DNA of 64,000 nt, taken from Nitrosococcus halophilus Nc 4 (GTDB lineage Bacteria; Pseudomonadota; Gammaproteobacteria; Nitrosococcales; Nitrosococcaceae). Shown piece after piece: positions 13,924 through 15,466 of the stretch. Both the position numbers and the translations under genes were made by a program. The stretch covers positions 3,148,001 through 3,212,000 of the forward strand of contig NC_013960.1 in the NCBI RefSeq assembly GCF_000024725.1, in the 5' to 3' direction. Position 1 is the stretch's first letter. The number at the start of each line of letters is the position of its first letter. The notes under the pieces were generated by a model. That model ran no database searches, was not told the DNA's origin, and worked only from the letters and a program-made list of their open reading frames with translations.

Positions 13924-13991
13924 GCATAAGAGTGAACCTAAGTGGGAATAGCTGTGGTAAGGTAAAGGCTCCGTTGGTTCTTGAGCGGAAA

Positions 13992-14579
13992 ATGGCCAAA
14001 TTCATGCCCATCTACACGATTCCTAATTTAATGACGGTGCTCCGTATTGTCGCCATTCCTATTTTAGTGGTGGTATTTTACCTTCCTGTGCCCTATGCCC
14101 GCGGGATTTGTGCGGCGTTGTTTGGTTTGGCGGCCATTACTGACTGGTTGGATGGTTACTTAGCGAGGCGTTGGCAACAAACCTCGCCATTTGGGGCTTT
14201 TCTTGATCCTGTTGCTGATAAATTAATGGTAGTCGTGGCCTTGATATTGCTACTACAGAGTCATCCCTCCATACCAATGGCCCTTTCGGTGGCGGTGATC
14301 GTTGGCCGGGAACTGACGATATCCGCACTGCGGGAATGGATGGCGGAAATTGGATTGCGAGCCAGTGTTGCGGTATCCATGTTAGGAAAATTCAAAACCA
14401 CCTTTCAGATGGTTGCGGTTTTCCTGCTGCTCTATCAAGATCCTATTGGGCCGATTCCGGTATGGGAGATTGGTTTGGTCCTTCTCTATATCGCAGTGGC
14501 CTTGACTTTAGGGTCGATGATCGTTTATCTCAATGCTGCCTGGGCGGCACTGTCCGGGCGGGCGGAAGATCGGGTCTAG
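13992..14579 (+). CDS. pgsA: CDP-diacylglycerol--glycerol-3-phosphate 3-phosphatidyltransferase
   Basis: 195 aa. It makes phosphatidylglycerophosphate from CDP-diacylglycerol and glycerol-3-phosphate in the inner membrane, the committed step to phosphatidylglycerol and cardiolipin. The CDP-alcohol transferase signature is complete: D-x2-DG-x2-AR-x8-G-x3-D-x3-D in TDWLDGYLARRW through GAFLDPVADK. About five membrane segments are seen. I chose ATG 13992 because the protein then starts MAKFMPIYTIPNLMTVLR, right before the usual IPN motif; a GTG at 13932 would add a 20-residue tail not typical of the family. It ends 1 nt before the tRNA operon promoter. Confidence 0.94.
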   Translation: MAKFMPIYTIPNLMTVLRIVAIPILVVVFYLPVPYARGICAALFGLAAITDWLDGYLARRWQQTSPFGAFLDPVADKLMVVVALILLLQSHPSIPMALSVAVIVGRELTISALREWMAEIGLRASVAVSMLGKFKTTFQMVAVFLLLYQDPIGPIPVWEIGLVLLYIAVALTLGSMIVYLNAAWAALSGRAEDRV

Positions 14580-14580
14580 C

Positions 14581-14608
14581 TTGACATAAAAAAGTTCGCT
14601 GTTACAAT
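14581..14608 (+). promoter_or_regulatory. Sigma-70 promoter of the tRNA Gly-Cys-Leu operon
   Basis: TTGACA (14581-14586) and TACAAT (14603-14608) separated by 16 nt, ending 14 nt before the first tRNA. The -35 box begins directly after the pgsA stop codon. The strong boxes suit stable RNA expression. Confidence 0.75.
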
Positions 14609-14622
14609 AATCACCGCATTGG

Positions 14623-14698
<76 letters not shown>

Positions 14699-14763: not shown

Positions 14764-14837
14764 GGCTGGGTGGCAGAGTGGTCATGCAGCGGCCTGCAAA
14801 GCCGTGGACGCCGGTTCGATTCCGACCCCAGCCTCCA
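14764..14837 (+). tRNA. tRNA-Cys(GCA)
   Basis: 74 nt with CCA encoded. Acceptor stem GGCTGGG pairs with CCCAGCC; anticodon loop CCTGCAAAG gives GCA; T-loop GGTTCGATTCC. It lies 65 nt after tRNA-Gly and 167 nt before the split tRNA-Leu. The 167-nt spacer shows no gene. Confidence 0.97.
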
Positions 14838-15004: not shown

Positions 15005-15338
15005 GCCCGGGTGGCGAAATAGGTAGACGCAAGGGACTTAGTCACTTGAGCACCTAGACGGGAAACCTCTAGCGTGAATGGAGTCAAATTCGGGGAAACC
15101 TCAGCGCTTTTTAGGGTGGTGGCAATCCCGAGCTAAGCCTTGTTTTTTAAGGAAAGTGTAGAGACTTAACGGCTCCTACCTAAGTTATTGTTTCGATTCC
15201 CAGACGAGGCGATGATAGGGTAAAGATAAAGTCCAGACCACAAATGTGCTTTATTAAGCACAGCAGCGAAAGTTGTAGCGGGTAAGAAAATCCCTTGGGG
15301 GAAACCCCGTGCCGGTTCGATTCCGGCCCCGGGCACCA
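15005..15338 (+). tRNA. tRNA-Leu(UAA), interrupted by a group I intron
   Basis: Exons are 15005-15039 and 15287-15338; joined they give an 87-nt tRNA with CCA encoded. Acceptor stem GCCCGGG pairs with CCCGGGC. The anticodon stem AGGGA/TCCCT forms only after joining, giving loop CTTAAAA and anticodon TAA. The long variable arm of class II tRNAs (GGGG-AAA-CCCC) is in the second exon, followed by T-loop GGTTCGATTCC. The break is between U34 and A35, the site used by the tRNA-Leu(UAA) intron of cyanobacteria and chloroplasts. Position in the operon equals E. coli leuZ. Standard tRNA scanners may miss or misplace this gene. Confidence 0.93.
15040..15286 (+). ncRNA. Group I intron in tRNA-Leu(UAA), 247 nt, no internal ORF
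   Basis: The 5' exon ends in U and the intron ends in G (15286), as in all group I introns. A guide GAG (15048-15050) can pair with exon CUU to form P1 with a U-G pair at the splice site. The four core elements are present in order: P (about 15087-15099, AATTCGGGGAAAC), Q (15123-15138, CAATCCCGAGCTAAGC), R (15156-15172, including AGAGACTTAACGG) and S (15223-15234, AAGATAAAGTCC). P4 forms from TCGGG (15090-15094) with CCCGA (15127-15131). P7 forms from GACT (15163-15166) with AGTC (15230-15233). A hairpin GTGCTT/AAGCAC (15246-15261) and a GAAA-capped stem near 15263-15275 lie in the 3' part. The whole resembles the cyanobacterial tRNA-Leu introns I know. Small size and lack of a homing endonuclease suggest a self-splicing, non-mobile form. 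Confidence 0.92.
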
Positions 15339-15350
15339 TCTATGAAAAAA

Positions 15351-15383
15351 AGCCCCAGGCCTTAATAGACCTGGGGCTTTTTT
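15351..15383 (+). terminator. Rho-independent terminator of the tRNA operon
   Basis: Nine-base perfect stem AGCCCCAGG / CCTGGGGCT with a 10-nt loop, followed by six T and preceded by seven A. It begins 12 nt after the tRNA-Leu CCA end. The flanking A and T runs would let it act in both directions. Confidence 0.92.
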
Positions 15384-15466
15384 ATTGCTAGGGAATGCTC
15401 TCAAGGAATTAATGTCGGTGCCGCTACCATTTCACTCCGGTCCAGTTTCAGCAGGATGGTTATCCA

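Follow-up and report, generated by a model that had tools for sequence, protein, structure and literature searches.

The 64,000-nt stretch of the Nitrosococcus halophilus Nc 4 genome analysed here, referred to as the window, contains a cluster of three tRNA genes in the order Gly(GCC)-Cys(GCA)-Leu(UAA). The cluster is downstream of uvrC, an identity assigned from its sequence, and of pgsA (13932..14579; all features given with coordinates are on the + strand), a neighbour and host marker that encodes a CDP-alcohol phosphatidyltransferase (PF01066, E 2e-38). A sigma-70-like sequence, TTGACA-16-TACAAT (14581..14608; 11/12 in a consensus scan), precedes the tRNA genes and presumably functions as a promoter. 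The tRNA-Gly(GCC) (14623..14698) and tRNA-Cys(GCA) (14764..14837) genes were identified by ARAGORN and Rfam, and the third gene, tRNA-Leu(UAA), is split. Its 35-nt 5′ exon (15005..15039) ends with U34, the first base of the anticodon, and its 52-nt 3′ exon (15287..15338) extends from A35 to an encoded CCA. Between them is a 247-nt group I intron (15040..15286) with an IC3-like layout and no ORF, and with the G at 15286 as its last base. Directly 3′ of the CCA, a scan of the sequence located a hairpin and T-run that resemble an intrinsic terminator (15351..15384). When joined, the exons form a complete class II tRNA-Leu with the anticodon UAA, and ARAGORN in intron mode (-i) reports a tRNA-Leu(taa) with a 247-nt intron; by both, the break after U34 and the extent of the insert given in the initial annotation are exact. 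The Rfam group I model, RF00028, matches 15029-15250 with 63.7 bits (E 8e-14; gathering score 50). Neither default ARAGORN nor the Rfam tRNA model called the split gene in the window, in keeping with the earlier remark that the gene is easy to overlook. The agreement of Rfam, ARAGORN in intron mode and the covarying 62-pair structure described below confirms the presence of a group I intron in tRNA-Leu(UAA).

The secondary structure was established from an alignment of 29 homologous introns and has 62 base pairs, in P1, P2, P3, P4, P5, P6, P6a, P7, P8, P9.0, P9, P9.1 and P10. RNAalifold recovered P2, P3, P4, P5, P6, P6a, P8, P9.0, P9 and P9.1, with 38 covarying pairs, and P1, P7 and P10 were then added. 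RNAalifold cannot draw the P7 pseudoknot, and its pairing of GGACT with AGTCC was rejected as spurious. An internal guide, UUGAG (15046..15050), pairs through GAG with exon CUU to form P1, which includes the U34.G pair, and through UU with exon A35A36 to form P10, with 100% and 98.3% of the cells paired, respectively. P2 (15051..15076) is a hairpin capped by a GAAA tetraloop, in which 6 of 8 pairs have changed on both sides. The 5′ strand of P3 (15080..15085) pairs with 15171-15176 (100% paired, 3 covarying pairs) and that of P4 (15090..15095) with 15126-15131 (99.4% paired). P6 and P6a (15132..15157) are at the site that, in relatives, has a homing-endonuclease ORF, and P6 is 100% paired with T-A, G-C and C-G alternatives. 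P7, the guanosine-binding helix (15163..15166, pairing with 15230-15233), is 100% paired with one covarying pair and is pseudoknotted with P3. The P8 helix and loop (15177..15222) are 99.1% and 91.2% paired with 6 covarying pairs, and P9.0, P9 and P9.1 (15237..15283) are 98.9%, 93.5% and 97.9% paired, respectively, with 13 covarying pairs. Over the 29 introns, 96.6% of the cells are paired as in the 62-pair structure, against 34-46% once the partner strands are slid 1-3 columns out of register, a control that somewhat favours the structure as this was partly derived from the same alignment. The double changes are independent of that derivation. Changes on both sides are present at 39 pairs, none of 500 shuffles reached this number, or any of the five measures used, and at one position in P3, A-U, G-C, U-A and C-G all occur. 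Chance is ruled out by the 39 double-changed pairs together with pairing far above the slid and shuffled controls. The splice-site U.G pair and the terminal G before the 3′ exon are present in 29 of the 29 introns. The group I core read from the insert in the initial annotation is thus recovered by the covariance search and by the covariation of the core pairings, which together define P3-P8, with the P7 guanosine-binding helix and the P3/P7 pseudoknot. The IC3 designation refers to the layout, that is, ready alignment with known IC3-type tRNA introns and the presence of a short P5, P9.0, P9 and P9.1.

Reading the exon sequence CUU|AA backwards, with a G opposite U34, predicts the guide 5′-UUGAG-3′. 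Among 94 loci with a Leu(UAA) intron, in which a few genomes are represented twice, 87% have UUGAG within the first 45 nt, against 4% of shuffled sequences. In other tRNAs, the guides predicted from their own junctions are UCGAG for Ser(UGA), present in 4 of 4 introns, UUGUG for Ile(CAU), in 69% of 29, UUGGG for Arg(CCU), in 2 of 2, and UUGCA for Thr(UGU), in the single example, with matches in 2-8% of shuffles over all tRNA types. The rule fails for Leu(UAA) introns located after U33 (0 of 5), which likely have a longer P1, and mostly for Arg(UCU) (1 of 3). That the guide tracks the host tRNA ties the intron sequence to the mechanism of splicing and points to retargeting of introns between tRNAs. 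Retargeting is directly testable, as the guide-exon covariation spans Leu, Ser, Ile, Arg and Thr tRNAs. In the splicing reaction proposed, the precursor would fold so that 5′-UUGAG-3′ aligns both exons (CUU|AA), a guanosine bound in P7 would attack after U34 at the invariant U.G pair, and exon 1 would then attack after the terminal G to generate the mature, UUA-reading tRNA.

A tRNA search of the whole genome, covering the 4,079,427-bp contig and a second contig of 65,833 bp, identified 44 uninterrupted tRNAs, including tRNA-Leu with the anticodons CAA, CAG, GAG and UAG, and found no second tRNA-Leu(UAA) gene. An intact second copy, which the initial annotation had considered would make the split gene a dead one, is therefore absent. 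Each of the window's 32 long ORFs uses UUA, which occurs 271 times among their Leu codons. This codon is not read by tRNA-Leu(CAA) under standard decoding. As the split gene is the sole UAA gene and every long ORF in the window uses UUA, it must give a working tRNA, and the precursor must presumably be spliced. It is true that default annotation tools do not see the split gene and that its splicing is deduced from the sequence, but a dead gene, in which the intron has lost its ability to splice, or results from misassembly, and another tRNA reads UUA, is hardly credible given that this is the only UAA gene, that UUA is heavily used, that the core pairings and guide are conserved in six species and that relatives assembled independently also carry the intron. 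The tRNA introns of Anabaena and Azoarcus are capable of self-splicing in vitro, and the complete catalytic core of the Nitrosococcus intron, with its GAAA-capped P2, P9.0, P9 and P9.1, similarly counts against a requirement in cells for host proteins, such as a synthetase-type splicing factor or an RNA chaperone, rather than RNA alone. We consider such a requirement unlikely, but there are group I introns known to depend on host proteins, for example those that are CYT-18-dependent (PMC3984707), and the predicted P1 has only 3 bp, so that the exons may depend on the anticodon stem for their positioning.

The intron is present at the same pgsA-Gly-Cys-Leu locus in all six Nitrosococcaceae genomes examined, those of four Nitrosococcus and of both other genera, and the gammaproteobacterial host and uvrC-pgsA-Gly-Cys-Leu locus had been correctly recognized at the outset. 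A search with the group I model detected no such intron in 57 genomes of the other family of the order. One genome of that family (G007) has a different, larger group I intron (L006:1448-1823), apparently in tRNA-Leu(CAA), between positions 32 and 33. A second match to the junction pattern in the N. halophilus genome (L293) is not flanked by tRNA exons and was dismissed as chance. Plasmid and phage collections yielded no full copy of the intron, their matches being limited to pieces of tRNA exons or other introns. Of 369 evenly sampled species of Gammaproteobacteria, 19 have the intron in their genomes by the 5′-junction pattern with full exon checks, and the Rfam survey added a twentieth (G356), so that about 20 of the 369, in 16 families, have the intron; a contig end truncates one additional copy. 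The pattern for an intronless site, with 1 mismatch allowed, is present in 321 of the 369, an upper bound as tRNA-Leu(CAA) genes are also admitted, and 11 of the intron-bearing species have no intact copy within 1 mismatch.

Scanning of GTDB contigs identified, among the matches listed, at least 45 Leu(UAA) introns after U34, some in genomes that overlap the class sample. The hosts of these listed matches include Thiohalophilus thiocyanatoxydans, Methylobacter, and Steroidobacteraceae and Acidiferrobacteraceae MAGs and, in other phyla, Acidobacteriota (at least 4), Bacteroidota, Bdellovibrionales and the cyanobacterium Myxacorys. Titles of MAG records, such as 'Klebsiella pneumoniae' (L162) and 'Akkermansia' (L084), look unreliable and were left out as taxonomy. 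The scan under-samples other lineages, as its pattern was modelled on the Nitrosococcus intron lineage; the set of 20 cyanobacterial introns used below was obtained independently, via Rfam. Surveys based on Rfam undercount the intron family, as introns that score below the gathering score of the group I model (L066, L083, L092, L126, L145) are missed. Among Gammaproteobacteria, Beggiatoa and Ca. Thiomargarita nelsonii had earlier been described as having tRNA-Leu(UAA) genes broken up by putative group I introns (PMC4853749), which were recognized from BLAST and annotation gaps and reported without a secondary structure or subgroup. With this precedent, about 20 gammaproteobacterial species in the sample and copies in other phyla, the premise of the initial annotation that the intron is an exception outside cyanobacteria does not hold. 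Reviews list tRNA group I introns for cyanobacteria and for alpha- and betaproteobacteria (PMC4033280). A search of the open-access literature found neither the Nitrosococcus intron nor any HNH gene within a tRNA-Leu intron described. Putative introns of this kind had thus already been mentioned for gammaproteobacterial tRNA-Leu(UAA) genes, and the more novel part is the existence of relatives that bear an endonuclease.

At least 12 of the 45 listed introns are 681-739 nt long, and each has one intact antisense ORF that is located between the two P6 strands, or slightly overlaps them, and so in the P6a loop. The product, 154 aa in most cases, has HNH motifs and paired zinc ligands (PF13392/PF01844), and these proteins are 64-71% identical to a reference member across Gammaproteobacteria and one Acidobacteriota locus. 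As in HNH endonucleases of mobile group I introns, there is an HNH_3/HNH domain with CxxC...CPNCH, encoded in a peripheral loop of the intron, but the gene is antisense to the intron and is located in a tRNA gene, and a search for a close solved structure of the protein found none. The ORF has a median pN/pS of 0.28 over 66 pairs, which, as synonymous sites are near saturation, shows protein-level constraint alone. Four of the sampled Gammaproteobacteria genomes have the endonuclease gene, and the intron at L178 retains a 28-aa remnant. The endonuclease probably lets introns that carry it invade intronless tRNA-Leu(UAA) genes. There is no endonuclease gene in the Nitrosococcus introns, or in this intron anywhere in the family, and a genome search for relatives of the HNH protein in Nitrosococcus returned only weak, unrelated HNH proteins. 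With no relative of the endonuclease left in its intron, past mobility in the Nitrosococcus lineage is something that we infer.

Related introns are also present in other tRNAs. Those in tRNA-Ile(CAU), after U36, are common in Gammaproteobacteria (L012, L013, L017, L019, L022, L023, L025, L026, L028, L029, L031, L032, L034-L036, L041, L042, L044, L045, L049) as well as in Betaproteobacteria (L080 and others). As exemplified by the Azoarcus intron, they have an IC3-like core and an anticodon-loop site after a U, and their UUGUG follows the same exon-matching rule, but the site is after U36 of a different tRNA and their identity to the Nitrosococcus intron (L001) is about 54-64%. The Gln, Met, His, Asp and Ser isotypes that ARAGORN assigned to other introns are artefacts of intron placement and were rejected, as the anticodon loops read Ile(CAU), Thr(UGU) and others; the Ile(CAU) introns were mislabelled Gln or Met. 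A related intron with the guide UCGAG splits tRNA-Ser(UGA) after U34 at L081, L160, L168 and L194 (and L152), mostly in betaproteobacteria, for example Achromobacter and Pusillimonas. Introns after U33, which adds a third site of insertion within the anticodon loop, are present in tRNA-Leu(UAA) (L099, L149, L154, L171, L179), tRNA-Leu(CAA) (L103, L180, L195) and tRNA-Ile(CAU) (L046, L073). In gammas, alphas and Rhodothermales, introns are also found in tRNA-Thr(UGU) (L014, L015, L018, L021, L108), possibly tRNA-Lys(CUU) (L024), tRNA-Arg(CCU) (L048, L056, L196) and tRNA-Arg(UCU) (L137, L150, L174). At two loci in congeneric genomes (L050, L060), P6 has an insert with a CCCTCTCCC/GGGAGAGGG inverted repeat that is perhaps a miniature mobile element. 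Three strong group I matches outside tRNA genes (L005, L010, L011) are on a 209-kb contig (C4 of G017) that may be viral, and at L043 and L075 (G227 and G086) two to three group I matches, possibly rRNA introns, are within 2-3 kb, outside any recognizable tRNA.

A maximum likelihood tree of the introns, based on 213 core columns and with a bootstrap that had not settled, has the 20 cyanobacterial introns in one group (97/92) and the remaining Leu(UAA) introns, together with proteobacterial Ser, Ile and Arg introns, in the other (98/95). The Myxacorys intron groups with those of Acidobacteriota and a few Gammaproteobacteria and so is of the non-cyanobacterial type, in agreement with earlier work on a polyphyletic origin of cyanobacterial tRNA-Leu introns, as cited in PMC5733544. 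AU tests reject none of the constraints imposed, namely a grouping of cyanobacteria with Nitrosococcaceae (p 0.15), a single clade of all Leu(UAA) introns (p 0.2) and monophyly of the six Nitrosococcaceae (p 0.21). L001 shares up to 84% identity with introns from unrelated Gammaproteobacteria; with cyanobacterial introns its median identity is 58%, and the best value, 67%, is to the atypical Myxacorys intron. Intron and PgsA distances are strongly correlated within Nitrosococcaceae (Mantel r 0.89, 32/5000 permutations) and weakly, although positively, across families (r 0.35, 78/5000 permutations).

The initial annotation had suggested as origins either a cyanobacterium-like donor or an old shared intron. 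The tRNA and the U34/A35 site are those of the intron of cyanobacteria and plastids (PMC4033280), and the Anabaena-type IC3 intron has the same core layout and, in most copies, the guide UUGAG. The P3 signatures differ (GGAGUC/GGCUCC rather than GCUCUC/GGGAGC). A recent lateral transfer into the Nitrosococcus host of this intron, or of a whole cyanobacterial tRNA-Leu(UAA) gene, is nevertheless highly improbable. The identities favour gammaproteobacterial over cyanobacterial relatives, all six members of the family have the intron with divergence to match, and the tRNA exons and the locus are native. With the 20 cyanobacterial introns forming a separate clade, import from such a donor is unsupported, even though the AU test is weak on this point and does not reject cyanobacteria and Nitrosococcaceae together. 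Of the second suggestion, vertical descent within Nitrosococcaceae stands. In its strict form, a single ancient intron, already present in a common ancestor of Cyanobacteria, Proteobacteria and other groups, would have been lost many times and never transferred laterally, and this would account for the shared site across phyla and for the many gammaproteobacterial copies at the same Gly-Cys-Leu locus, and is compatible with the AU result for a single Leu(UAA) clade. We judge it distinctly unlikely, given the patchy presence of the intron across the class, endonucleases that are 64% identical between Gammaproteobacteria and Acidobacteriota copies, the weak correlation with PgsA across families and the non-cyanobacterial intron in Myxacorys. 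Some deep vertical inheritance is possible, as the correlation across families is positive, but its weakness and the homing-endonuclease genes in relatives favour repeated lateral spread.

It is, in sum, very probable that the only tRNA-Leu(UAA) gene of the genome is split by a functional, ORF-less group I intron whose lineage differs from the main one of cyanobacteria and includes HNH-bearing relatives, and that this intron was acquired by the ancestor of the family and has been inherited vertically. The best reading of the acquisition is that the donor was another proteobacterial or similar lineage, with transfer presumably in that direction, and that the endonuclease gene would have been lost or never have come along. 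A broader proposal, that we put forward tentatively and at a little under even chances, is that a mobile family of group I introns, driven by the HNH endonuclease and present across phyla, targets the anticodon of an essential, single-copy tRNA and has its guide rewritten on moving to other tRNAs. The Nitrosococcaceae intron would then be an endonuclease-free, vertically fixed descendant of this family, the site shared with cyanobacteria would be convergent or reflect an ancient split, and the family would be missed by default annotation.

The UUA-reading tRNA is essential and yet is missing from the default calls in genomes that bear the intron. tRNAscan-SE 2.0, by its own account, is not designed for tRNA genes with group I introns (PMC8450103). 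As default calls miss the split tRNA, many Gammaproteobacteria probably have tRNA counts and codon-decoding tables that are one gene off, and, if an HNH-driven family is correct, the host tRNA would be unannotated in about 5% of the species of this class. Introns with an endonuclease, with a remnant (L178) and without either, all at one site, and intronless sites in relatives, provide a natural series on the spread of a ribozyme intron, its loss of mobility and its fixation in an essential gene. The site of the textbook 'ancient' tRNA-Leu intron of cyanobacteria and plastids is, in other phyla, occupied by an apparently separate lineage.
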